A DNA stretch of 64,000 bases from Candidatus Hebobacterum abditum (GTDB lineage Bacteria; Armatimonadota; Hebobacteria; Hebobacterales; Hebobacteraceae): contig JALGXW010000009.1 of the NCBI GenBank assembly GCA_029821875.1, forward strand, positions 41,423 to 105,422. The letters are read 5' to 3'. The notes beneath the pieces were generated by a model that saw only the letters and a list, made by a program, of their open reading frames with translations, was not told the DNA's origin and did no database searches. This document shows, piece after piece, positions 11,205 through 41,823 of this stretch. Positions within the stretch are counted from its first letter, which is position 1; each line of letters begins with the position of its first letter. The position numbers were made by a program, and so were the translations under genes.

Positions 11205-13271
11205 ATGTCGAACTGGTTCGCCGAACATCCGCGCAAGGTGCACATCCTCTACGTGTCGCCCGACTGGGCGAAGCGGCGGGGGCAGCGCTTCGACGCGCGC
11301 CGGATGGCCGACTCTCTGGCGGAAGCGCGAGTCGATTGCGTGCAGTTCTACTGCAAGGATCACCACGGTATCTGCTACTACCCGTGCTCAGAGGGGTCGG
11401 CCTACGAGTTCGATGTTATCGGCCCAATGGTCGAGGCGTGTCACGACGTGGGCGTCAAGTTCATGGCCTACTTCAGCGTCGGGTTCGACAACTACGCGCT
11501 TGGGCTCCACCGCGATTGGATCCACGTCAAGCCAGATGGCGAGTCCTGGCGCATGGGCCCCTTCTACTTCGGTTGCCTCAGGTCTCCCTACGCCGAGTTC
11601 TCGCTCCGCCAGTTGGACGAACTGATGGCCGCCTACCCCGTCGATGGCGTCTGGCTGGACATCATCCCGGTCGCATGGCGAGACTATGAAAGGCCCGTCT
11701 ACGGCTGGTGGCACGGCGAGATCTCTCATGTCTGCCACTGCCTCCACTGCCATCGCGGGTTCCTGGAGCAGTCCGGCCGCGACCTGCCCCGAGAGCCGGA
11801 TGCTGGCGAGCAGATGGCCCTCTTTCGCTTCGGTGTCGAAGGCGTCGAGGAGTACCTGCGCCAGGCCACAGAGACGATCAGACGCCACCGGCCGGAGGCG
11901 ATCGTGACCTACAACAACGCCGGCGTCCCTCAGGATCCGGTCTTCCTGTCGGACCTCGTGACGGTGGAGGCGCACGCGCCCTTCTACAAGAACCAGAGCT
12001 GGGCGGCACGGTCCAGTCGGGCCCGCGGCAAGCCGTTCGAGGTGCTCATGCCGGGCGCGCTCCGAGGATGGAACGGCTTCGATCAAAAGCCCGCTCCTCT
12101 CATCCAGCTGGAGAGCGCGATCCCGGCGGCACACGGAGGCTCCGCAACCATTGGCGTCATAGGCCGGCCGGATGGATCGTTGGAGCCCGGCGCGCTGGAT
12201 GCAGTTCGAGACTCCTTCGTGCGGCTGGAGCAGCTCGAACCCCATCTGACAAACACTGACCCGGCCAGCGACATCGGCCTGCTGCTGCTCGTCGATCCGC
12301 TCGACTGCCCGCAGTTGGGCGTCACACATCTGAAGGAGGCGCATGCGTTCCACAACGTCATGGTGCAGGACCACCTTCAGTACCAGGTACTCTACTCGGT
12401 CGAGGATCTCCAGCGCTTCCGCGCCGTCGTGGCGCCGAGCCTGGCCCTGCTCTCGGACGCAGAGGCGGACACACTGAGGGAGTATGTCGCCGGCGGCGGG
12501 AGGCTCTTAGCCACGGGAGAGGCGGGGGCGCGCCATCCCGACGGAAGCCGCCGCGACCTACCGGCACTGGCCGACGTCCTGGGCTTCTTGGCGCTCGAAT
12601 GGCCGCCGTGGTCATACGCCTTCGTGCGTCGGGGAGAGGAGCGGCTCTTCGAAGGGATCCCCGATATCCCGATACGGATCGCGGGGCCGGTCGCGCTGCT
12701 CTCAGACGTGTCCGGCGAGGTGCTTGCCACCGTGCAGCTTCCCGAGGCCCCGGCGACGATCAACACAACCCTCCTCTGGCACGAGCCGGCGGGCGACGAG
12801 GATCGTTCGCATCCGTACGTCGTCCGAACGCGGCACGGGAAGGGGCTCTGCGTCTACGCAGCCTCAGCGCTTGCTACCACCACGACAGCCTTCCCCGACA
12901 TTGCTGGCGGGTGGGCGAAGGAGTTGACGCGCCGGCTGCTCTCCACAGTACTGCCAGAGGGGGAGCGTTCGCTGTCGATCAACGCGCCTCCCGGCTGCGA
13001 GGCGGTACTGAATCGGAAAGACGGCCGGCTCGTGCTCAACTTGATCAACCACTACGCCGGGCACCCCGACTACCTGCCTGCGAGAAGAGGGGAGGTCACT
13101 CTTGGGCCGTTCGACGTGGTGCTGAGGACGGATGTGTCAGGTGCTGTCCGGGCGCGGGTCGAGCCAGACGGGCCGAATGTGCCGGCTGCGGTCGAGGACG
13201 GGGCGATCCGCCTGACCGTACCCCCCTTCGAGGTCCACCAGGTCATCACGATTGAGCCGAGTCGCAGCTAG
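11205..13271 (+). CDS. Glycosyl-hydrolase-like protein with beta-galactosidase trimerisation-type domain
   Basis: FDARRMADSLAEARVDCVQFYCKDHHGICYYPC, DGVWLDIIPV, CHCLHCHRGF; FRAVVAPSLALLSDAEADTLREYVAGGGRLLATGEAG. ATG at 11205. Confidence 0.75.
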   Translation: MSNWFAEHPRKVHILYVSPDWAKRRGQRFDARRMADSLAEARVDCVQFYCKDHHGICYYPCSEGSAYEFDVIGPMVEACHDVGVKFMAYFSVGFDNYALGLHRDWIHVKPDGESWRMGPFYFGCLRSPYAEFSLRQLDELMAAYPVDGVWLDIIPVAWRDYERPVYGWWHGEISHVCHCLHCHRGFLEQSGRDLPREPDAGEQMALFRFGVEGVEEYLRQATETIRRHRPEAIVTYNNAGVPQDPVFLSDLVTVEAHAPFYKNQSWAARSSRARGKPFEVLMPGALRGWNGFDQKPAPLIQLESAIPAAHGGSATIGVIGRPDGSLEPGALDAVRDSFVRLEQLEPHLTNTDPASDIGLLLLVDPLDCPQLGVTHLKEAHAFHNVMVQDHLQYQVLYSVEDLQRFRAVVAPSLALLSDAEADTLREYVAGGGRLLATGEAGARHPDGSRRDLPALADVLGFLALEWPPWSYAFVRRGEERLFEGIPDIPIRIAGPVALLSDVSGEVLATVQLPEAPATINTTLLWHEPAGDEDRSHPYVVRTRHGKGLCVYAASALATTTTAFPDIAGGWAKELTRRLLSTVLPEGERSLSINAPPGCEAVLNRKDGRLVLNLINHYAGHPDYLPARRGEVTLGPFDVVLRTDVSGAVRARVEPDGPNVPAAVEDGAIRLTVPPFEVHQVITIEPSRS

Positions 13272-13397
13272 CACTGGAGAAGGGCGGTGACGAGCAGGGA
13301 GCATGTCAGACGTGCGACCCCCTTCGGCGCAGGCGGTCGGCCGAGCGGGTGCGGAGAGATCGGGCAGGATGTCCCGCTGTGAGGAAGGCTGGTACTA

Positions 13398-15326
13398 GTG
13401 GCCGACAGATCACGTTGGCAACCAGCGCGCGGTCGAGGCATCAGCCTGCGAGCTATTCTCATCGCAGTGGCGGCCACGCCCGCTAACGCATACTGGATGA
13501 CATATACGTATTGGCACTTCGGCCACTACGTTGGTCCGGGCATCATCTACTACAATTGTGTCGTCTATCTGGTTGGGCTCGTGTGCGTCAATGCGGTGCT
13601 GCGGCGCTGGCGGCCCCGGTGGGTTCTCTCTGTGGGGGAGCTGCTCACGATCTACCTCCTGCTTTCCCTTGCCACCGCCTGGTGCAATGTAGACTTCCTG
13701 AGCGACCTGCCGGAGGCGATCTCGAATCCCTTCTGGTTCTCGTCGCCGGCGAACCAATGGGATGAACTGGTGCTGCCCTACCTCCCGGGCTGGCTGACGG
13801 TTTCGGACCCGGAGGTCATCAGCGGGCTGTTCGAGGGCTATTCCACACTCTACCGGGGGCACGTGATGCTGGCCTGGCTGAGACCTGCGCTGTGGTTGAG
13901 TGCGATGGTCAGCGCGCTGATGCTGGCCTTCGTCTGTCTCAGCTCCATCTTCCGCCGCCGCTGGTCAGATGAGGACAAGCTGCTCTTCCCGGCAGCCATG
14001 GTGCCCCTGCAAGTCGTTGACAGACACCATGGGCTGTTCCGAAGTAGAGTCATGTGGATCGGATTGCTTCTGGCGGCCGGGGTCGAGGCCCTCAACACTA
14101 TCCATGGGCTGATTCCGGCCGTGCCGCCGATACCATTCTACCTCGACCCTGGCCCGTATATCCAAGGATTGCACCCTTGGAACTCTATCCGCCAAGTGGC
14201 CATGGGAATCGAGCCCATCGTGGTCGCCGTGTGCTATTTGATGCCACTCGACCTCCTCTTCTCAGTGTGGTTGTTCAACCTGATGTTCAAGGCTCAGCTC
14301 ATCACAGCGACCCACTTCGGGTGGACCACCAACATCTGGACGGGCTTCCCCTATGTGGACAACCAGTCACTGGGGGGCTACATCGCACTCGTGGTCTCGG
14401 TGCTGTGGCTCGGCCGTAACTACCTTCGTCAGGTCGTGCGTAAGGTACTGGGACTAAGCTCCAGCCTCGATGACTCGGGGGAAGCATTCAGCTACCGGGG
14501 CGCCGTGATGGGACTGCTCGTGGCGCTGGGCTTTCTCATCTACTTCTTCTCTAGGGGCGGCATGGGGCCGGTGCTCACGCTGTTTTGGGCTGGACATTTC
14601 CTCTTGCTCGGCCTGGCGGTAACTCGCATACGGGCTCAGCTTGCGCCGCCGATGTTTGAGTTATGGTGGATAGGACCGAACCACGTGCTTCCGATGGTGA
14701 TGGGCACCAGAGCGATGTCACAGCAGGCGCAGGGGATGATGTGGATCACCTATCCAGTCACGCGGGCGTTCAACAACGCGCCTCAGCCCTGGACCCTGGA
14801 GGGATTCAAGCTCGCCGAGAGCGGGCGTATGGACCGGGGGAGACTCGCCTGGCTCATGGTGGCAATCACCGCAGTGGCTGCCATGAGCGTCTTCTGGGGG
14901 ACCCTCCATGTTGCGTATGGGAGCGGCGTCGCCGGCAATGCTGACCCAGAGGCGGATCATCACGCGCTCGACGTGCCGGAGCTGCTTGCCCAAGCCGTGG
15001 GGAATCCAGGAGGTCCGGACTACTCGGCACTTATGGCAGTCGGAGCCGGCCTGGTCAGCACGATAGCGTTGATGGCGCTGAAGATGCGCTTCGTCGGCTG
15101 GCCGCTCCATCCCGTAGCTCTGCCTATCGCCTCCGCTTGGGCCACCGATTACCATCTCCCCGCCATCTTCACGGCCTGGCTGATCAAGGCCGTCATCATG
15201 CGGTACGGGGGCCTGCGACTCCATCGGCATGGGCTGACGTTCTTCCTGGGTGTGATCATCGGGTCCGCGATCGCCGTCTTCGTGCGCAGCATCATCGCGT
15301 GGCTCGCCGGTGTGCCGCTGCTGTGA
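13398..15326 (+). CDS. Polytopic membrane protein, DUF6785/DUF6784-like (putative transporter)
   Basis: Paralogue of 7159-9084; many hydrophobic segments; GTG start. Confidence 0.85.
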   Translation: MADRSRWQPARGRGISLRAILIAVAATPANAYWMTYTYWHFGHYVGPGIIYYNCVVYLVGLVCVNAVLRRWRPRWVLSVGELLTIYLLLSLATAWCNVDFLSDLPEAISNPFWFSSPANQWDELVLPYLPGWLTVSDPEVISGLFEGYSTLYRGHVMLAWLRPALWLSAMVSALMLAFVCLSSIFRRRWSDEDKLLFPAAMVPLQVVDRHHGLFRSRVMWIGLLLAAGVEALNTIHGLIPAVPPIPFYLDPGPYIQGLHPWNSIRQVAMGIEPIVVAVCYLMPLDLLFSVWLFNLMFKAQLITATHFGWTTNIWTGFPYVDNQSLGGYIALVVSVLWLGRNYLRQVVRKVLGLSSSLDDSGEAFSYRGAVMGLLVALGFLIYFFSRGGMGPVLTLFWAGHFLLLGLAVTRIRAQLAPPMFELWWIGPNHVLPMVMGTRAMSQQAQGMMWITYPVTRAFNNAPQPWTLEGFKLAESGRMDRGRLAWLMVAITAVAAMSVFWGTLHVAYGSGVAGNADPEADHHALDVPELLAQAVGNPGGPDYSALMAVGAGLVSTIALMALKMRFVGWPLHPVALPIASAWATDYHLPAIFTAWLIKAVIMRYGGLRLHRHGLTFFLGVIIGSAIAVFVRSIIAWLAGVPLL

Positions 15327-26356: not shown

Positions 26357-29095
26357 ATGCGCGTGAAGTGGGGTGTTGCGGGAGGTCTCGTTGTGCTGAC
26401 CGTCGGTGTGGTCGTGCTCGTGATGGGCGGCCCTGCGCCGATGCAGCAGGCAGAGGCGGCCATCGATCGCTCGACGCCGGGCAGTCTGAGCGTCATCGTG
26501 AAGCCTGGGGAGAAGCTGCGGTCATGTCCCTTGGAACACACAGACGTGGAGGGATGGATCGCGGGTGACGTGGCCCACGTTCGCGTCACTCAGCGATTCG
26601 CCAATCCCTACGACGATCCCATCGAGGCGGTCTACGCATTCCCTCTGCCCGAGAACTCGGCTGTCAACGACATGGAGATGCGAATCGGAGAGCGCACCAT
26701 CCGAGGTGTCATCAAGGAGCGAGATGAGGCCAAGGAGATCTACGAGGAGGCCAAGCGCGCGGGGAAGACGGCCAGCCTCCTGGAGCAGGAGCGCCCCAAC
26801 ATCTTCACTCAGTCGGTCGCCAACATCATGCCGGGAGAGCCGGTAGAGATCACGCTCTGGTATGTGCAGGATCTCCCCTATGACCGCGGTCGCTACGAGT
26901 TCACGTTCCCGATGGTTGTCGGGCCGCGCTACATTCCGGGGCACTCGCTGGAAGGCCCGCACACGGGGGGAGGATGGGCGCCCGATACGGACCGCGTCCC
27001 CGGCGCCTCCCGTATCACGCCGCCCGTGTTGCGCCCGGGCGAGCGGACCGGCCACGACATCTCGCTTACCCTTCATCTCGATCCAGGCGTCCCCGCCCAT
27101 GACGTGAGCAGCAAGTCGCATGACGTCGCTGTGGATTCTTACGGCGACGCCCCGATGATCGTCTCGTTGCCCTCCCACGAGATGATCCCGAACAAGGACT
27201 TCTCGCTCTCCTGGCGGGTGGCGGGAGAGCGCCCGGAGGTCGCGCTGCTGACCCATAGTGATGATCGGTCCGGTTACTTCACCCTCATTCTGCAGCCCAA
27301 GGCCGACTTCGAGCCGAGCGAGATCGCCCCCAAGGAGATGATCTTCTGCCTCGACACCTCTGGGTCGATGAGCGGGGTGCCAATCGAGAAGTCCAAGGAA
27401 GTCGTGAAGCTCTGCCTGCAGGAGATGGGGCCCCATGACACCTTCCAGGTCATCCGCTTCGCCGGAGACTCGTCCACCTTCGCGCCCGAACCCGTCCCGG
27501 CGTCGAGGCGCAACGTCGAGCGGGCGATCGACTTCATCGACGAGCTGCGGGGGAGCGGCGGTACCGAGATGCTCAAGGGCATCGAGGCCAGCCTCGGGAG
27601 TCCACCAGACCCAAAGCGGGTACGGATCGTGGCCTTCCTCACCGACGGCTACATCGGGAACGAGAGTGAGATCCTGGCCCGCATCCAACGGAAGCTCGGG
27701 GAAGCGCGCATCTTCTCGTTTGGCATAGGCTCCTCAGTGAACCGCTATCTGCTGCGCAAGATGGCGGAGATGGGACGCGGAGTGCCGCAGTTCGTGAGAC
27801 AAGACGAGGACCCGGACGCGGCCGTACGGAGCTTCGTGGATCGCATCTCCCGGCCTTACCTGACCGACGTCGAGATCGACTGGGGCGGCCTCGATGTCAG
27901 GGACACCTACCCACCGTACGTGCCCGACCTGTTCGCCGACCAGCCCGTAGTCCTCCATGGTCGCTACGAGCAGCCCGGCGCAGACGCTGTCGCCATCCGT
28001 GGCCGGGTGAGCGGGGAGCCGTGGGAGACGACACTGCAGGCGATCCTCCCGGCCGACCAGTCGGACAATGCGGCCCTCGGTGTGCTCTGGGCACGCGCCT
28101 GCATCGAAGACATGATGGACCAGATGCATGAGGGAGAGGACCCTGAGCTGGTGGCGGCCGTCACCGAACTGGCCATCGCCTACCGGCTCGCATCCCAGTA
28201 CACTTCGTTCGTGGCGGTGGAGGAGAAGGTCGTCAACCGCGGCGGGCAGCAGGTGACGGTTCAGGTGCCCGTGCCAATACCCGAAGGTGTGAGCTACAAG
28301 GGTGTGTTCGGGGACGCGGCGTTGCGGGAGGAGAGCGCATTGGCTATGGCTCCGCCCCCGGCGATGGCCGCGGGTCGAGCTGCGGCCGGAATGGCCGGAG
28401 GCAGGGCAGGCCTCACAAGAGTACGCGCGCCGGCCGCCAAACCGCGGTCGGTTGGAGGCGTCCCTATCGCCACCACGCCTCGCATGTGGGACCCAGACAT
28501 ATCTGGAGGAGTATGGATTGCGCTCGTCACGGGCGAGGCCAACGCAACCTCCGAGGAGACGCTCGGGCATCTGCTGACGGCAGCCAGGACGGCAATCGGC
28601 CTTCCGGTTGGGACTGCCGCGATCCTGACATATGAGCAGATCGAGCAATTGGAGACGACAGAGGACCTGCAAGTGTTGCTGTTGATCGGCTCCGAGAGCG
28701 TCACGCTGAGCGACAAAGCGAAGGAAGTGTTGGTGGCCTACGTTGAGTCGGGCGGGTTCGTGGTCATCGACAGTGGAAGCGATGACTTCCACGAGAGTAT
28801 CGTGCCCGTGTTCGCTCCGCTGACGCGAACCGGCCACCTCGCCACGCTCGGCACGGATCATGAGGTGTTCCGTGATGACTCCATGCCGTTCGTGTTGAGT
28901 CAAGGGTGTCCCGCCGGAGACGAGTCACAGCGTGCGCGGCCCGCCGAGGGCCTCGTCGTCGATGGCCGCCTGGCCGTCTTCGTCAGCAGGGCCAACCTTA
29001 CGGGCGCGTGGCGCGAACCGCCAGATGAATCGACCCGCAACGCGTACCGAATGGGTGTCAACCTCATTGCCTATGGACTGCAGACTGCCTCCTAG
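26357..29095 (+). CDS. VIT and VWA domain protein with C-terminal DUF4159-like region
   Basis: VIT: VAHVRVTQRFANPYDDPIEAVYAFPLPENSAVNDMEMRIGERTIRGVIKERDEAKEIYEEAKRAGKTASLLEQERPNIFTQSVANIMPGE. VWA: MIFCLDTSGSMSG. C-terminal LLIGSESVTLSDKAKEVLVAYVESGGFVVIDSGSDDF. Confidence 0.9.
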   Translation: MRVKWGVAGGLVVLTVGVVVLVMGGPAPMQQAEAAIDRSTPGSLSVIVKPGEKLRSCPLEHTDVEGWIAGDVAHVRVTQRFANPYDDPIEAVYAFPLPENSAVNDMEMRIGERTIRGVIKERDEAKEIYEEAKRAGKTASLLEQERPNIFTQSVANIMPGEPVEITLWYVQDLPYDRGRYEFTFPMVVGPRYIPGHSLEGPHTGGGWAPDTDRVPGASRITPPVLRPGERTGHDISLTLHLDPGVPAHDVSSKSHDVAVDSYGDAPMIVSLPSHEMIPNKDFSLSWRVAGERPEVALLTHSDDRSGYFTLILQPKADFEPSEIAPKEMIFCLDTSGSMSGVPIEKSKEVVKLCLQEMGPHDTFQVIRFAGDSSTFAPEPVPASRRNVERAIDFIDELRGSGGTEMLKGIEASLGSPPDPKRVRIVAFLTDGYIGNESEILARIQRKLGEARIFSFGIGSSVNRYLLRKMAEMGRGVPQFVRQDEDPDAAVRSFVDRISRPYLTDVEIDWGGLDVRDTYPPYVPDLFADQPVVLHGRYEQPGADAVAIRGRVSGEPWETTLQAILPADQSDNAALGVLWARACIEDMMDQMHEGEDPELVAAVTELAIAYRLASQYTSFVAVEEKVVNRGGQQVTVQVPVPIPEGVSYKGVFGDAALREESALAMAPPPAMAAGRAAAGMAGGRAGLTRVRAPAAKPRSVGGVPIATTPRMWDPDISGGVWIALVTGEANATSEETLGHLLTAARTAIGLPVGTAAILTYEQIEQLETTEDLQVLLLIGSESVTLSDKAKEVLVAYVESGGFVVIDSGSDDFHESIVPVFAPLTRTGHLATLGTDHEVFRDDSMPFVLSQGCPAGDESQRARPAEGLVVDGRLAVFVSRANLTGAWREPPDESTRNAYRMGVNLIAYGLQTAS

Positions 29096-31833: not shown

Positions 31834-33834
31834 GTGTCGATGCATAGGACGGGGATGGCCTCACTTCGTCAGCGGGTAATTAGCCGGCGTTTCTGGCGCG
31901 CGGTCCTGGGCCGAGTGGCGATGGTCCTACTGGTCCTGTCTGCCGTGGTCCTGCTTGCCCCCTCGCTTAGCTTCATCGAGTTGCGTGCACTCGATGTGTT
32001 GTACGCTCTGAGGTCAGAACGCGAGCCCGATCCACGCATCGAGCTCATTGACAGCGGCGGCGATCCGAGTGTGTACGACGGCCTGCGGGACCCGCGCGAG
32101 CCGCCCGGGAGCGGGTGTGAGACCCCGAGACTGGCCTATGCTGAGGCAGTGCGCCGTCTGAGCCGATGGGGCGCGAAGGTGATCGTGTTTGATCTGATGT
32201 TCCGCCGGAGTTGCGAGTACGAGGATGAGCAGCTGGCCGAGGCCTTCCGGGAGGCGGGCAACGTCATCGTGGCGGCCACCACCAAGACCAAGCCGGGGGC
32301 GGTCGGGCTGGAAGACCCAGTGACGCCCCTCCACGAGGCGGCGGCAGTTGGTTCTCCGGTAGCGTATCAGGCCCACGAGACTGTACGTTCCGTACCGCTG
32401 TTGGTGCGAGACCGCGACAGCGGCCGGGAATACCGGGCCCTGTGTCTGGAGGCGTTCCAGCGCTTCAAGGGTGCGGGCCGCGCGCAGGCGAAGCTCAGGG
32501 GACGCCGGTGGCTCGTGATGGGCGACCAGAGAGTACCGGTGCTGCCCGGCGAGCAGATCAGCTTGCTGAGTCCCGGCGGCGCGGGCAAGCCCGACGACTC
32601 GAGCGAGAGCGGCGGGGCGGCCTTCGAAGTTGTACGGGGCGACAACGTGGAGGAGATCCCCGGACTCGTGACCTGGAACACCATGTTGCTCAACTGGGTC
32701 GGACCCGAGGGGACGATCCGGCCGCACCATCTGAGCGACTTGCTGGCCATGGACGATGACGTGCGGGGCCGCGAGATGTTCGACGGCAAGGCTGTGATCA
32801 TCGGTCAGATGGACTGGGATGCGCACTGGACGGCGGTCGGAGCCATGCCCGGCCCGGAGGTCCAGGCGAACGCCCTTCACACGCTGATGTCCGGGGACTT
32901 CATACGCCCCATCTCTCCCTGGGCCATGATCGGAGTGCTGCTGGCCTTCAGCCTCGGGACGTCGTTGGCTGTTCGGCGCTTCCGGGGCATGCGCGCCATC
33001 GGCGCCGTGGTCCTCCTCGTGGGCGCGGCGGTTGTGTTGGCCCGTCATCTGCTGGTAGAACGAGGCGTCTGGATGTACCTCTTCTACTGCGAGCTGGGCA
33101 TTGGCCTGACGTGGGGGATGACGGTCGTTGCCGAAAGCGATAAGGTGACGAACCTGTTGACACGGTTTGTCCCGTCCTTCATTGGAAAGCCGGAGGCGCC
33201 AGGGGTGGGGGAGGTCCGCACAATGGACGCCTCGATCCTGTTCTCCGACATCCGTGGCTATACGGGCATCGCCGAGCAGTTATCCGCTGCGGATACGCTG
33301 ACCATGCTCAATACGTACCAGTCCGCCGTCGAAGACGTCATCACCAGGTACGGGGGGACCATCGTGAAGACGCCCGGGGACGCGATCCTCGCCGTCTTCT
33401 GGAAGGACGTGGGAGATCTCAGCCACGCGACTTGCGCCCTCCGGTCGGGTGAAGAGATACTCCGTGATCTGCCCGCCATGGGGCGAGCTTGGGAGGCCGT
33501 CGGGGTGAGCCTCAAGATCGGTATTGGGATTGATGCCGGACAGGTGGCCATGGCATTGGTGGGCAAGCGTCATCTCGAGCCGACGGTCATCGGCGACGCT
33601 GTCAACGTGGCCCAGCGGCTGGAGACCCTCACAAAGACTCTGGGGTGCCCGCTCGTGTTCAGCGAGAACGTGCGCGAACGCCTCCGTGAAGACGTAGAGA
33701 CGGTATGCCTAGATGAGCTGACGGTCAGAGGACGGAAGACGCCGCTCCGAGTCTACGGGGTGGCTGGTCCGGACGGCCTCTGGCACGGTCTCGAGAAGAG
33801 TGTTGATCTTGCCGGGAAGGAGAAGACGGAATGA
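31834..33834 (+). CDS. CHASE2 domain adenylate/guanylate cyclase (class III)
   Basis: CHASE2-like extracytoplasmic region (LDVLYALRSEREPDPRIELIDSGG...LSRWGAKVIVFDLMFRR); cyclase DASILFSDIRGYTGIAEQLS, GGTIVKTPGDAILAVFW, EPTVIGDAVNVAQRLETLTK. Confidence 0.92.
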   Translation: MSMHRTGMASLRQRVISRRFWRAVLGRVAMVLLVLSAVVLLAPSLSFIELRALDVLYALRSEREPDPRIELIDSGGDPSVYDGLRDPREPPGSGCETPRLAYAEAVRRLSRWGAKVIVFDLMFRRSCEYEDEQLAEAFREAGNVIVAATTKTKPGAVGLEDPVTPLHEAAAVGSPVAYQAHETVRSVPLLVRDRDSGREYRALCLEAFQRFKGAGRAQAKLRGRRWLVMGDQRVPVLPGEQISLLSPGGAGKPDDSSESGGAAFEVVRGDNVEEIPGLVTWNTMLLNWVGPEGTIRPHHLSDLLAMDDDVRGREMFDGKAVIIGQMDWDAHWTAVGAMPGPEVQANALHTLMSGDFIRPISPWAMIGVLLAFSLGTSLAVRRFRGMRAIGAVVLLVGAAVVLARHLLVERGVWMYLFYCELGIGLTWGMTVVAESDKVTNLLTRFVPSFIGKPEAPGVGEVRTMDASILFSDIRGYTGIAEQLSAADTLTMLNTYQSAVEDVITRYGGTIVKTPGDAILAVFWKDVGDLSHATCALRSGEEILRDLPAMGRAWEAVGVSLKIGIGIDAGQVAMALVGKRHLEPTVIGDAVNVAQRLETLTKTLGCPLVFSENVRERLREDVETVCLDELTVRGRKTPLRVYGVAGPDGLWHGLEKSVDLAGKEKTE

Positions 33835-36800
33835 GGACTCGACTGCTATTTCGCGCGAGCCCGACTCGTTGGTGCCTGCTCTGGATGGGCTTGGGCTTTC
33901 TCTCCCTCTGCCTGCTGAGCGGCACGGCGCACGCGCGAAAAGCGCGAAAACCGACCTTCACGCTGCAATCCGCTCGCGGCCGGGTCGAGATTCAGACCGG
34001 CGGCAAGGGAGCTTGGCGGGCGATCGGCCGGGGCGTTCGAGAAGCTTCGCCCGGAGACCACATACGCACCGGCTCCAATGGCTCTCTCCACATCGTGACG
34101 AACGATGGGGCACGGATCGCCCTCGGGCCCGAGACCGAGGTCGTTCTTCGAGAGCCGGACCGACCTCGTGGCTGGCGAGTCACTCTCGGGCGCGTATGGG
34201 CCTCCATTACAGGCCGTCAGCGTCTCGAGGTGCGCGCGCCGGGTGCTATCGCGGCCGCGGAGGGGACGACCTTCCAGCTGGAGGTCAGCGAAGACGGCAC
34301 GACGGTGTTGACGGTGGCCGAAGGTACGGTCCAGTTCTTCAATGAGTTGGGCAGCGTGACGGTGCTCGGCTCGCAGCAGAGCACAGCACGGGTCGGTGAG
34401 GCCCCCACGCGCCCTATCGTCGTTGATCCCTCAAGCTTGACCGCATGGGAGGCCAATCTACAGACTCTCATCATCGCCCTGGAGTGCCCCCTGGTGAGCA
34501 CGGACCCAGCGCGGCTGGAGCAGGAGCTTTCCCAAAGACAACAGGCAGTGAAGGACCGTCCGGAGGAGGCCGCGGCCCGCGCCGCCCTGGCGGAGGTGCT
34601 GCTCGACCTGTACCGCACAGATGAAGCCGTGGCCGAGGCCCAGCGGGCGGTGGAGCTCACCCCCGATCAGACCGCCCTCCGCGGCGTGCTCGGATACGCC
34701 TTGCTGCAGGCCGGCCGTCCCGGCGAGGCGGGCGAGCAGTTCTCACTGGCGTCCAAAGCCGAGCCGGATGAGGCACGATGGCAGGTTGGCTTGGCGCTCG
34801 TGGCTCTGGGCCAACGTGATGCCGAACCGGCCGTCGAGCTCCTCCGCCGCGCCGGGGAGTTGGTCCCGGGCGACGCATCGCCCCGGGCGTGCCTTGCCGC
34901 CGCTTACCTGCGTGCCGGCGACCTGGAGAGGGCCGCGGCCTCCGCCTCGGAGGCTGTCAGCCTTGACCCCGAGTCCTCTCTTGCCAACACATACCTCGCC
35001 TATGTCCATCTCGCCCAGGGGAAGACCGACGAAGCTGTCACCAGTGCCAGCAGGGCCGTGAGCGAGGCCCCTCGGTCCGCGCTGGCGCGCGAGGCCCTTG
35101 GCACTGCTCTTATGTTCGCCGGGCAGTTCCCCGATGCGGGGCAAGAGCTTGACCAAGCGCTCGAGCTCAACCCGGCCTCGGCCAGCGCCCATCTGGCACG
35201 AGCGAAACTCCTGGCTGCCGAGGGCGAACTCGAGGTCGCCCTCCAGGAGGCTCAGGTGGCCGTCGCCCTCGACCCGCAGAGCGCGCCGGCTCGCAGCACG
35301 CTGGGACTGCTGTTCCTGCTGAACAAGGACTCGCAACGTGCAGGCCGTCAGTTCGAGCAGGCTCTGGCCGTGGATCCAAGCTTGTCTGAGGCCCGTACCG
35401 GCTGGGGCGCGGTCCTCTTCAGGCGCGGTCGCTTCCGCGAGGCCATGGAACAGCAGAAACTCGCCGTGTCTCTGGACACCGACTCCGCCTCCGCTCAGAA
35501 CAACCTGGGAGGCGTGTATGCGTCATTGGGGCGGATGGACGACGCGATCGACCACTTGGAGCGCGCCATCCAGCTGCAGCCCGGTTGGGGCCTGCCCTAT
35601 GCGAACCTCGCCGTCGTCCACCTGGAGGAGAATCGCTTCCGGGAGGCCCTCGACGCGGGCGAGCGGGCCCTCGCGCTTGGAGAGCGCTCTCCCTTCGTGC
35701 ATACAGTGCTGGCGCGAATCTACATGAGCCAGGGTCGTGCCGGCCGCGCGTTCGCTGAGTTGCGGCAGGCCGTGGCGCTGGATAAGCTGTACCCGCAGGC
35801 GCACTATCAGTTGGCGCAGCTTTACCTCGGTCAGGATAGGTCCCGGGACGCGGTACGGGAGATTGTGGGCTCGGTGATCGCCGATCCTTCCGCCATGCTG
35901 GAGACGAGGCTCTATGCCCGGACCGAGAACACCCTCGCTCTCGGAAGCTATGACCGGTTCCATGATGACGGACACCACAGTGGCCAGGCGAGCGACGGTG
36001 AGCTCAGCTACTTCGGGAGCTGGCTACTGGACGATAATGACGGTTGGCGGGAGGTGAACCAAGACGCGAGGGAGGTGTTCTTCGAGGGGATCGCCGGACA
36101 TCAGTCCCAGCCCGGTCGACAATTCGTCTTCTTCGGCACATTCTTCGACCGCGAGAGCGGCCTGCCCGGGCCGGAGACGGGCGCCTCCCTGGGAGATCCG
36201 GACGACCGGCGAGATTTCTCTGGCTACCAGACCCTCGTTGCCTATCGCGAACAGCTGTCTCCCGCGGTCAAGGGCACTTTCAAGTACTCGTACACTGAGA
36301 GCGACTTTCGTTCCCTGAACCCTGGCAGCATGACCGGAGCGGACACCAACCCGTTCCGCGACCTCAGGAATGAGAGCTCCCGGCACTCGCCGGAGATCCG
36401 TCTGGACGCAGTCGTCAATGGACATTCCTCCCTGAGTGCCGGTTACGCCCGTCTCTCGGACGAGACCAAGTCTTACGGGGTCGCGTCCGTCTTCGACCCC
36501 GGCACGGGTGAGATCATCCCTGCTCCCTTCGGCGTGAAGACCGACTATACGACTGACACGATGTGGCTGGAGGCAGGGACCGACTTCAGTGACCGCTTTC
36601 ACTTGACGCTTGGCGGGTACTGGGGACGGGAGGGAGACGCCTCCCGCGTGGGCTCGCCCAAGGTCGTGGCCCTCTATCGCCCCGATCGCTCCACCTGGTG
36701 GTCGTTTGTGATGAACCCGATCTTCCGGAGCGACGCCTCGGAGTTGGCTCCTGTCGAGGCCCTGGCCGATCCGAAGGGATTGAGCTACCTCAACTTCGGG

Positions 36801-37376
36801 GCAGAGGGCATTGGGCGGACCTACGAGTTGCGCTATCAGCGGCAAGGAGGCCGGTCGAGCACGGTGACCACCGCACTCGCCTACCAGGAGGTATCGGACC
36901 TGCTGATCGATGTAGAGGACCCCGCATGGACCGGCCTTCCGACCCGGGTGTTGGTGGACCAGGGGGATCGGTGGGTCGCCGACGCCGCCTACGAGCAATG
37001 GATCTCTGACACCATCTCCGGTCGTGTGTGGGTGCGATGGCAGTCGAGTTGTGGGGACTTCCCCGAGCTGCACGTGAGCGGAACTGAGTGGCCCTACGCC
37101 CCTGAGTGGCAGACGGGCGCGAGCTTCGACTACATCGACGCCGCGTGGCGCATCGGGCTCGAGCCTGTCTTCGTAGGCGACCGTTACGCAGACCCGGAGA
37201 ACACCCAGAGTGTCGACGGCTACTCGATCCTCAACCTGCGGGCCCGGTACCAGCGTAACCTGCGTCAGAACTACTTCCTGCATGTGATGAATCTCACCGG
37301 GAAGGACTACGAGACCTTCGCCGGATTCCCTCAGCCCGGCCGGACTCTTCTTGTCGGGCTGGAGTATCGCTACTGA
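33831..37376 (+). CDS. FecR domain - TPR repeats - TonB-receptor-type outer membrane beta-barrel fusion
   Basis: Signal peptide; FecR-like GRVEIQTGGKGAWRAIGRGVREASPGDHIRTGSNGSLHIVTNDGARIALGPETEVVL; tandem TPRs about aa 220-680; C-terminal barrel ending NLTGKDYETFAGFPQPGRTLLVGLEYRY. ATGA overlap with upstream cyclase. Confidence 0.88.
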   Translation: MRTRLLFRASPTRWCLLWMGLGFLSLCLLSGTAHARKARKPTFTLQSARGRVEIQTGGKGAWRAIGRGVREASPGDHIRTGSNGSLHIVTNDGARIALGPETEVVLREPDRPRGWRVTLGRVWASITGRQRLEVRAPGAIAAAEGTTFQLEVSEDGTTVLTVAEGTVQFFNELGSVTVLGSQQSTARVGEAPTRPIVVDPSSLTAWEANLQTLIIALECPLVSTDPARLEQELSQRQQAVKDRPEEAAARAALAEVLLDLYRTDEAVAEAQRAVELTPDQTALRGVLGYALLQAGRPGEAGEQFSLASKAEPDEARWQVGLALVALGQRDAEPAVELLRRAGELVPGDASPRACLAAAYLRAGDLERAAASASEAVSLDPESSLANTYLAYVHLAQGKTDEAVTSASRAVSEAPRSALAREALGTALMFAGQFPDAGQELDQALELNPASASAHLARAKLLAAEGELEVALQEAQVAVALDPQSAPARSTLGLLFLLNKDSQRAGRQFEQALAVDPSLSEARTGWGAVLFRRGRFREAMEQQKLAVSLDTDSASAQNNLGGVYASLGRMDDAIDHLERAIQLQPGWGLPYANLAVVHLEENRFREALDAGERALALGERSPFVHTVLARIYMSQGRAGRAFAELRQAVALDKLYPQAHYQLAQLYLGQDRSRDAVREIVGSVIADPSAMLETRLYARTENTLALGSYDRFHDDGHHSGQASDGELSYFGSWLLDDNDGWREVNQDAREVFFEGIAGHQSQPGRQFVFFGTFFDRESGLPGPETGASLGDPDDRRDFSGYQTLVAYREQLSPAVKGTFKYSYTESDFRSLNPGSMTGADTNPFRDLRNESSRHSPEIRLDAVVNGHSSLSAGYARLSDETKSYGVASVFDPGTGEIIPAPFGVKTDYTTDTMWLEAGTDFSDRFHLTLGGYWGREGDASRVGSPKVVALYRPDRSTWWSFVMNPIFRSDASELAPVEALADPKGLSYLNFGAEGIGRTYELRYQRQGGRSSTVTTALAYQEVSDLLIDVEDPAWTGLPTRVLVDQGDRWVADAAYEQWISDTISGRVWVRWQSSCGDFPELHVSGTEWPYAPEWQTGASFDYIDAAWRIGLEPVFVGDRYADPENTQSVDGYSILNLRARYQRNLRQNYFLHVMNLTGKDYETFAGFPQPGRTLLVGLEYRY

Positions 37377-37397: not shown

Positions 37398-38540
37398 ATG
37401 AAACTAGCACTGCGGCGCTTCTGTGTACCTGCGACTGTGTTGCTCGCACTGGTCGTCGCAGGCTGCCCTGCAGGCCATGCCCAGGAGTCTCTGTCGGCAG
37501 TCCCCGGCCAGATTGCCGCGGCGATGTATGTCCAGCAGTGGAGCCAGATCCTTTGGGGCCTTGTCACCACGCAGACCGGAACGGAGATACCATCGTTCGG
37601 CGAGCCCGTCTTCGATCCGGATGGTTCGGTCACCCAGACATTCACGGCCGCAGACGGAACCGAAGTCGTCCTCACGTTGCTCCCGGACGGCTCGGCCCGT
37701 CTCGACATCACCTACGCAGATGGCACCACCCAGACCGTCATCCAATCGGTTCCCAGGTTCGACGGTGTGTCGGTGACCACCATCCACTGGAGCGTCACCT
37801 CGAGCGATGGGCTCTCCGTCGAGTACACGAGCATTGTTGACGACCGCGACACCATCTTCGATGAGAGTGACGACATCACGCAGCTGCTGGGTTCCTCCGT
37901 GTTGCCCGAAGGGATCACCCAGGAATTCGACGTGCTGAGCGCCGACGGACTAACCGAAGTGCACTCCAGCCAGAGCGACGGCTCGATCTTCACCTTGGCT
38001 GTGCCCTTGGCGTTCCCCGACTTCGCGCTGCCCGATCTCTCCCAGAGCGCGAGTGGCACCTACATTGGCCTCGGCGTCAGCGTGCAGTTCATGTTGACCC
38101 CGACGCCGAAGTATCCCACCCGCTGGGCCGCTCTCTTGGCTGACCTGGGTGATGGGATGACTGGCACGTTCTCTCTCAACAGCGATTTCTCTGGCTTCGG
38201 CCAGTTGACCGAGAGCAGTCCATGGGGTGAGAGACTGGTGGCCCTGATCTCGTGGACGCAAGACGGAGACACTCACGTCTACTTGCTGAGTGGTCAGGAC
38301 CGCCACATGGGGCCTGCGGGAGCTTCCCTAGACTACCTCGAGCACCGATGGCAGACTCTAACAGCATTGTTGGCCCCGGCCCCGGGCGTCGGCTTGAATG
38401 CTGGTAGACCCGGCCGGCCCCGGAGGGCGCCCCGCCTGCGCACTGGCCCACTGGGTCCGTCGAGAACGCTCCGCGGCGCGCTGGGACCGGCTTCCCGCCT
38501 TGGGACTCAGCGCGGTCCTGGGCAGCGGACCCTGCCCTAG
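37398..38540 (+). CDS. Hypothetical lipoprotein
   Basis: N-terminal lipobox-like signal (VLLALVVAGCPAGHAQ); AGGAGG SD-like sequence upstream; 21 bp downstream of the FecR fusion. The last ~40 aa are low-complexity and may not be native. Confidence 0.65.
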   Translation: MKLALRRFCVPATVLLALVVAGCPAGHAQESLSAVPGQIAAAMYVQQWSQILWGLVTTQTGTEIPSFGEPVFDPDGSVTQTFTAADGTEVVLTLLPDGSARLDITYADGTTQTVIQSVPRFDGVSVTTIHWSVTSSDGLSVEYTSIVDDRDTIFDESDDITQLLGSSVLPEGITQEFDVLSADGLTEVHSSQSDGSIFTLAVPLAFPDFALPDLSQSASGTYIGLGVSVQFMLTPTPKYPTRWAALLADLGDGMTGTFSLNSDFSGFGQLTESSPWGERLVALISWTQDGDTHVYLLSGQDRHMGPAGASLDYLEHRWQTLTALLAPAPGVGLNAGRPGRPRRAPRLRTGPLGPSRTLRGALGPASRLGTQRGPGQRTLP

Positions 38541-38914: not shown

Positions 38915-39322
38915 CTAGCGCCCCAAAACTTGGTTGATGGTCTTCATCAGGTCGTCGACCTGGATCGGCTTGTCAAGCCAGCCTTGCACTGGCAGGTACT
39001 CCCCAGGCTGGTAGGTCCCGTCGGTCTCGTCGGGGTAGAAGCGCAGTTCGGTCGTCTGGTGGATGCCGGTAGCCATGACTATGGGGACATTCCTCAGCGA
39101 TTCGTCTTCCAGCTGCCGCATCTTCCAGACCAGATGGAATCCCTCAGTGCCCTCGGGCATCATGACATCTACGATCATCAACTCCGGTTTGGAGTCGACG
39201 GCGGCCGCCTCGGCCTCTTCCTTCGATCCGGCCGTCACAACTTCGTGCCCATTGGCCTCCAGGGCGAGCTTAAGCGCCTGGGCAACTTTGGGCTCGTCGT
39301 CCACCACCAGTATCTTCGCCAT
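38915..39322 (-). CDS. Single-domain response regulator (REC)
   Basis: MAKILVVDDEPKVAQALKLALEANGHEVVTA...LMIVDVMMPEGTEGFHLV...GWLDKPIQVDDLM. Confidence 0.92.
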   Translation of the reverse strand: MAKILVVDDEPKVAQALKLALEANGHEVVTAGSKEEAEAAAVDSKPELMIVDVMMPEGTEGFHLVWKMRQLEDESLRNVPIVMATGIHQTTELRFYPDETDGTYQPGEYLPVQGWLDKPIQVDDLMKTINQVLGR

Positions 39323-40470: not shown

Positions 40471-41823
40471 TCATTGGGGGGGGCGCTCCAGCGGTATGCG
40501 GCAGCAGATCGTCGTGCCGACGCCCGGTTCGCTCTGCACTTCGACCGTTCCGCTGTGGGCGTCGACGACATCCTTGACAATTCGCGTTCCAAGGCCCGTT
40601 CCCATCGGTTTCGTGCTAACAGCTTCGTCGGTGAACAGCTTCGCCTTCACATGGTCCGGGATGCCCGGTCCCGTGTCCGTACATTCCATGGTAATGAAGT
40701 TCCCGCCAGGGAACTCGCCAGCGGCCACGCCGTCGCAGCGAAAGGTAACCATGTCTCCATCGTCGCAGGCGTCGATGGCGTTCAGGATGAGGTTGTATAC
40801 CGCATTGTAGATCTGCTTTCCATCCACCATTGCCGGAGGCAGCTCGCGAGCCGCCTCGATGGTAAGCGTGACACCCTTACGCTGCGCCTGAGGACCCAAC
40901 ATGGCCCCAACGCGCTGCGCGATCGGGACAATGACGACGGGCTCGAAGTGCGGCTCGGACACTCTCCCCTTGACAGCGGCCGAGATCTGGGCCATGCGCT
41001 GCTGCACGACATCGCACCCCTCGAGGATCATCTCAACAATGTCCGGGTACAGCTCGCGCAGCTTATCCATAGTACCCGCGATCTCTGCGGCCTGATCTCC
41101 CGTCTGGCCCTGCCTCCCCAAACACTCGTCGAACGTCTGGAAGCAGTCGTTGGCGATCATCTCCAACGTTTGGGCGCCGGTCATCGGCGGGGTGATCATG
41201 TTCTTCACATCGTGGCTGATGTTCCCGATGAAGCGCACGACCGTCGCTAGGCGGGCCTCCTCGTGGAGGCGGACCGTCGTGATCGCCACCGCAATCTGGG
41301 CCGCGATGATCTCTATCAGGTTGATGTCATGCTCGTCGAACTGCCCCCCACCTCGCTTGTTGAGGACCTGCATCACGCCCAGGGGATCGGTCTCCGGCGA
41401 CATGAGCGGAACCGTCACCATGTTCCGGGTGACGTAGTCGATCTTCTCTGCCACCTCCCGCAGGTGGGCCCGCTCTGTCCCAACGTCCTCGGACACGAAG
41501 GTCCGACCCGACTGAAACACCATCCCAGCAAGTCCCTGGTCTAGCTCGAGCTCGGTGCCCATCAGCTCGTCAGCCTTCTCTCCCACCACGTACTGGAAGA
41601 CGAGCTTCTCCTTGGCTGGATCGTATAGCAGGATGGAGCCGGCCTCCGCGTGGGCCAGCGTGAGGCTGGTATTGAGCGCCTCTCGGACGAGGTGCTCGAC
41701 TTCCGTGGCAGTGCTGAGGCTGACCGCTATGCGCCGGACAGCATCAAGCTGCCGCTCCAGTTCCGACATCTCGCGCCGGAGGTCCTCGACGCTGTCGGCT
41801 CCGCCATCCATGGCCCTTCCCAT
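40471..41823 (-). CDS. GAF domain sensor histidine kinase
   Basis: GAF region (LTLAHAEAGSILLYDPAKEKLVFQYVVGEKADEL...); FIGNISHDVKNMI; HATPase MVDGKQIYNAVYNLILNAIDAC, DTGPGIPDHVKAKLF, MGTGLGTRIVKDVVDAHSGTVEVQSEPGVGTT. Confidence 0.92.
   Translation of the reverse strand: MGRAMDGGADSVEDLRREMSELERQLDAVRRIAVSLSTATEVEHLVREALNTSLTLAHAEAGSILLYDPAKEKLVFQYVVGEKADELMGTELELDQGLAGMVFQSGRTFVSEDVGTERAHLREVAEKIDYVTRNMVTVPLMSPETDPLGVMQVLNKRGGGQFDEHDINLIEIIAAQIAVAITTVRLHEEARLATVVRFIGNISHDVKNMITPPMTGAQTLEMIANDCFQTFDECLGRQGQTGDQAAEIAGTMDKLRELYPDIVEMILEGCDVVQQRMAQISAAVKGRVSEPHFEPVVIVPIAQRVGAMLGPQAQRKGVTLTIEAARELPPAMVDGKQIYNAVYNLILNAIDACDDGDMVTFRCDGVAAGEFPGGNFITMECTDTGPGIPDHVKAKLFTDEAVSTKPMGTGLGTRIVKDVVDAHSGTVEVQSEPGVGTTICCRIPLERPPQ

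Follow-up and report, generated by a model that had tools for sequence, protein, structure and literature searches.

The closest described relative of the locus reported here is found in the alfalfa symbiont Sinorhizobium meliloti, where NsrA is an outer-membrane receptor needed for the response of the CHASE2 adenylate cyclase CyaK (SMb20776; PMC5498481) to plant signal 1 (PMC7529298, PMC13001267, PMC10463352). In this system, the barrel portion of NsrA has been placed at residues 600-1200, there is no response without NsrA to added proteins, among them the candidate ligand ribosomal protein uL2, and recognition by the external loops of the barrel was suggested by the authors (PMC7529298). In the Campylobacterota, a gene cluster has been described that holds a CHASE2 adenylate cyclase, a phosphodiesterase, a FecR outer-membrane protein and a TPR protein (PMC9239204). 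The BiofilmReg operon of Burkholderia encodes a LysM-FecR protein together with a CHASE2 histidine kinase, and in that work the cues recognised by CHASE2 were stated to be unknown (PMC5192318).

The DNA analysed here (the window) is a stretch of 64,000 nucleotides from contig JALGXW010000009.1 of Candidatus Hebobacterum abditum (Armatimonadota), in which one gene encodes a signal peptide, a FecR domain, a tetratricopeptide repeat (TPR) array and a predicted C-terminal barrel in a single chain. With a probability of about 0.72, this protein is read here as an NsrA-type outer-membrane receptor that works with a CHASE2 adenylate cyclase whose gene directly precedes its own. With NsrA already described, the FecR-TPR-barrel architecture is known to biology. 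Sequence comparison appears to add a barrel that is akin to TonB receptors and lacks their plug, a lipoprotein as third gene, outputs that alternate between cyclase and kinase, and the system's spread within Armatimonadota. The features concerned are the following.

31834..33834, + strand: CHASE2-adenylate cyclase, 666 aa (Pfam CHASE2 90 bits, Guanylate_cyc 66 bits)
33831..37376, + strand: FecR-TPR-barrel gene, 1181 aa, ATG start, reading frame intact
33831..33935, + strand: signal peptide region, residues ~1-35 (from sequence; hydrophobic helix 11-37 in the AlphaFold model)
34056..34334, + strand: FecR domain, residues 76-168 (PF04773; beta-rich 43-186 in the AlphaFold model)
34569..35879, + strand: 13 tetratricopeptide repeats, residues 247-683 (Pfam TPR families; modelled helix pairs each 34 residues)
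35889..37373, + strand: predicted TonB-receptor-type beta-barrel without plug, residues 687-1181 (PF00593 in 15/21 relatives; PDB profile search; hhalign to plug-bearing receptors)
37398..38540, + strand: lipoprotein gene, 380 aa (lipobox LVVAGC; beta-rich)

An earlier note, made from the sequence alone, had proposed that one polypeptide joins a signal peptide, a FecR-type domain, a TPR array and a TonB-receptor-like barrel, and this is borne out by Pfam, by family profiles and, for the N-terminal parts, by AlphaFold. When residues 1-686 were scanned with Pfam, PF04773 (FecR) was matched at 54 bits (cut-off 24), and many TPR families were matched in the 1181-residue protein. The possibility that the reading frame is an assembly chimera, which the same note had named as grounds for refutation, does not apply, because the FecR-TPR-barrel architecture recurs in ~23 Armatimonadota genomes. 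AlphaFold was run with an alignment of four sequences, in full-length and barrel-only jobs, and returned a signal helix, a beta-rich FecR domain at 43-186 with moderate confidence, and thirteen TPRs with 34-residue spacing at 247-683, their confidence ranging from high to moderate; in both jobs the barrel region came out beta-rich at a pLDDT of ~30, a level at which the strand count, 22 in a TonB-dependent receptor, is not readable. The model, which had been proposed as a check, thus agrees with the signal helix, the FecR-like domain and the TPRs, and neither confirms nor refutes the barrel.

Evidence for the barrel comes from the family. The C-terminus of the window copy alone matched no Pfam family; PF00593 was matched in 15 of 21 family members, and in a congener with 82% identity the match reached 45 bits and covered positions 29-436 of the 436-position profile. 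An alignment of five barrel sequences proved too divergent for scanning contigs. When a family profile of 21 barrel domains was compared with solved structures, TonB-dependent receptors were found, the best being PqqU and YncD (YncD 6v81, E=1.6e-12, with a weaker colinear stretch starting at YncD residue 184). Against canonical Armatimonadota receptors, hhalign aligned 447 columns (probability 98.9%, E=2.7e-17) and set family columns 6-480 against residues 168-625 of a receptor that is 633 residues long and has its plug at 59-162; the template consisted of two such receptors only, with the C-terminal third strongest and the N-terminal edge less certain. This pairing suggests that the barrel homology begins at the plug-barrel boundary of a canonical receptor. 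All 21 family members end in R-[FYHW]. In the family, then, the kinship of the C-terminal barrel with TonB receptors is clear at the sequence level, the fold itself being a prediction.

The plug (PF07715), which the earlier note could not see, was likewise not found by Pfam in the reading frame or in any scanned family member, and profile-profile comparison of the whole family with a plug alignment gave no match (Prob 0.1%). A plug hidden in the downstream lipoprotein or in the FecR-TPR arm was considered and rejected, neither having matched the plug alignment. Since the barrel homology to canonical receptors appears to start from the end of their plug onward, and no plug is matched, the FecR-TPR arm would stand in the plug's place.

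The cyclase is laid out as an N-terminal membrane helix, a predicted periplasmic CHASE2 domain (34-373), further membrane helices and a class III cyclase domain (464-636), and reading the sequence against established class III cyclase motifs shows those for metal, substrate and transition state to be intact. It is the sole CHASE2 match in the genome. The start of the barrel gene overlaps the cyclase stop as ATGA, an overlap that is repeated in the congener (L023) and in genome G012 (L021), and the lipoprotein gene, whose product matches no Pfam family, starts 21 bases past the barrel-gene stop. No sigma-70-type promoter was found, and terminator-like sites were no commoner than chance. The genome also encodes cyclic-nucleotide-binding proteins, TonB with one plug-bearing receptor, and 30 sigma-70 region 2 matches, with no sigma-factor match on JALGXW010000009.1.

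Several other genes were noted in passing. Convergent to the operon lie a receiver-like 135-aa protein (38915-39322, - strand) and a GAF-HATPase sensor protein (40471-41823, - strand), both of which are found at the same place in L023 (the congener) and L022 (G012). At 26357-29095 (+ strand), a 912-aa VIT/VWA protein that carries DUF4159 at its C-terminus scores 537 bits against a marine proteobacterial sortase target model, just under the cut-off of 552. The sole other FecR domain of the genome (G000:C57:228034-228300; L096) is fused to PD40 propeller repeats, and a sigma-70 region 2 match lies ~640 bases ahead of its gene, which is a more classical FecR setting.

When the barrel profile was searched against 291 Armatimonadota genomes, matches were found in 40, of which ~23 carry the strong family, with proteins mostly of 1165-1290 residues where complete; further genomes (L028, L069, L090-L093) hold FecR-TPR-barrel-like proteins of greater divergence, and in a scan of named genomes the only hits besides close relatives were TonB receptors of the ordinary type or TPR proteins. 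In the host's own family, six other genomes had no match to the barrel profile, and copies at 64-68% identity occur in genomes of distant families, which suggests that horizontal transfer or repeated loss lies behind the patchy distribution. An apparent half-swap between two genes in the single-contig assembly of G012 (L021, L022) was rejected as biology and is a scaffold misjoin, because both joins to unrelated sequence lie in runs of N.

A CHASE2 protein adjoins the barrel gene in 19 of the 22 strong-family loci whose upstream side is readable, and its output is a class III cyclase in 10 of these 19 loci and a histidine kinase in 9. Within the strong family, the kinase and cyclase versions separate in the trees of both proteins, the CHASE2-protein tree including the output domain and so not being independent of this split. 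The subclade of L078, L079 and L080 has lost its CHASE2 adjacency, and there the gene follows a large secreted-looking FlgD_ig protein. The lipoprotein is adjacent in all 22 loci that have that side on the contig, and in one (L025) its place is on the upstream side of the cyclase gene. In L088 (G252) the barrel gene is followed by the lipoprotein partner in two copies (11214-12197 and 13276-14274).

Relatives outside the phylum were reached by a FecR-region protein search of plasmids, which led to Sinorhizobium, Ensifer, Methylocystis and a few others, the CHASE2 region of the window cyclase giving no match to plasmids. At three loci, in Sinorhizobium, Ensifer and Methylocystis, a FecR and TPR protein of 1209-1227 residues is encoded immediately upstream of a CHASE2 cyclase; in Methylocystis these are annotated as just 'FecR domain-containing protein' and 'adenylate/guanylate cyclase domain-containing protein'. 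The window protein matched an unannotated open reading frame of an S. meliloti megaplasmid by BLASTP (E=9e-24), and the Armatimonadota and alphaproteobacterial families aligned end to end by hhalign (E=3.3e-45, 1048 columns), with E=1.5e-14 for the barrels alone. This open reading frame is presumably nsrA, which reportedly lies immediately upstream of cyaK (Garnerone et al. 2018). No lipoprotein match was found beside the alphaproteobacterial copies, and because of this the third component, as judged from these sequences, is not general.

The sensory rather than uptake role that the earlier note had favoured is supported by the CHASE2 cyclase and lipoprotein neighbours and by the NsrA-CyaK match; its alternative of an assembly device is not, and both the cyclase partner and the prior description of NsrA had been missed. 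We propose that the barrel sits in the outer membrane and, probably together with the lipoprotein, answers an external signal, and that the 13-TPR arm would span into the periplasm and present FecR to the periplasmic CHASE2 domain that the inner-membrane cyclase carries. The FecR-CHASE2 contact, by changing, would then set cAMP synthesis or, in relatives, histidine-kinase activity. The CHASE2 and FecR-TPR-barrel proteins are kept together while the output domain swaps, and this gives comparative support for their working as a pair; what the signal is, whether FecR touches CHASE2 directly, how far the arm reaches and what the lipoprotein does are inferred. Observations that sit less well with this receptor-cyclase pairing are the three family loci that pair with the FlgD_ig secreted protein and not with CHASE2, a window barrel that has no Pfam match alone and a pLDDT of ~30, and the alphaproteobacterial copies that have no lipoprotein match beside them.

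The module may instead read envelope state (for example outer-membrane assembly or lipoprotein traffic), with the barrel acting mainly as an anchor and the FecR-TPR arm and lipoprotein as the sensor that CHASE2 reads. Conservation of the lipoprotein partner is in keeping with such a role, as are the barrel-less LysM-FecR proteins beside CHASE2 kinases in Burkholderia (PMC5192318) and the mean identity of family members to the window protein, which is higher in FecR (0.50) and TPR (0.51) than in the barrel (0.41), although a diversifying ligand-binding barrel would equally show lower conservation. This explanation is considered unlikely: the response to uL2 and other added proteins depends on NsrA, and recognition through the external barrel loops is what the authors of that work suggest (PMC7529298).

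It is quite improbable that the protein works as an export porin like BcsC, PgaA or Slam, with TPRs leading a polysaccharide or lipoprotein through the barrel and the CHASE2 cyclase doing no more than regulate that pathway. The layout of TPRs plus barrel is shared with such porins, but the NCBIfam matches to BcsC and PgaA score far under cut-off and, like the Pfam TPR_Slam match, are confined to the TPR region; the barrel belongs, by its profile matches, with TonB receptors, and no synthase, glycosyltransferase or secretion gene recurs alongside in the loci compared. Very improbable indeed is a divergent TonB-dependent transducer, its receptor fused to FecR, that would act via an ECF sigma factor. 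A FecR domain joined to a TonB-receptor-type barrel, in a genome with TonB and 30 sigma-70 region 2 matches, is what such a transducer would call for, but the plug is missing, no sigma factor is matched on the contig, and FecR lies at the N-terminus of a secreted protein that has no separate inner-membrane anti-sigma part; the other FecR gene of the genome, in contrast, stands ~640 bases after its sigma-factor match. The comparison with anti-sigma sensors drawn in the earlier note is not supported at this locus, where FecR is, as read from the domain order, the periplasmic part of an outer-membrane protein.

Under the favoured receptor-cyclase pairing, the CHASE2 sensor domain gains a concrete conserved partner, and NsrA of S. 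meliloti is extended from one symbiosis to a broad family that includes a very different phylum. The swapping of outputs makes the FecR-CHASE2 contact directly testable, and the locus points to a TonB-receptor-type barrel used without a plug. As a more tentative generalisation, TonB-receptor barrels that lost their plug and gained a FecR-TPR arm touching CHASE2 across the periplasm could form a widespread class of trans-envelope receptors that signal from the cell surface independently of TonB, with interchangeable cAMP and phosphorelay outputs and, in Armatimonadota, a lipoprotein co-sensor.

Among known systems, the Burkholderia BiofilmReg operon is similar in pairing a periplasmic FecR-domain protein with a CHASE2 enzyme, there of the kinase type, and differs from the window operon in that its protein has a LysM peptidoglycan anchor, with no TPR array or barrel described (PMC5192318). 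The Campylobacterota cluster likewise groups a CHASE2 cyclase with FecR and TPR proteins and has an outer-membrane location, but FecR and TPR are listed there as separate genes and a phosphodiesterase is present (PMC9239204), a type of gene that was not found with the window operon. With TonB-dependent receptors and transducers (PF07715 + PF00593; FecA), the window protein appears to have the barrel family in common; it carries a FecR-TPR arm in place of their plug, and a cyclase or kinase partner takes the place of the ECF sigma factor of the transducers. The TonB-receptor match is clear for the Armatimonadota barrel and faint for the alphaproteobacterial barrels. NsrA-CyaK of S. meliloti (Garnerone et al. 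2018, doi 10.1128/JB.00019-18; PMC7529298) differs in that identity is ~25% (BLASTP over FecR-TPR), the receptor gene precedes the cyclase whereas it follows it in the window, the window operon has a lipoprotein partner, and some Armatimonadota relatives use a kinase. It is like the window locus in having a protein of ~1200 aa with FecR, TPRs and a C-terminal barrel in the same order, encoded directly beside a CHASE2 adenylate cyclase.
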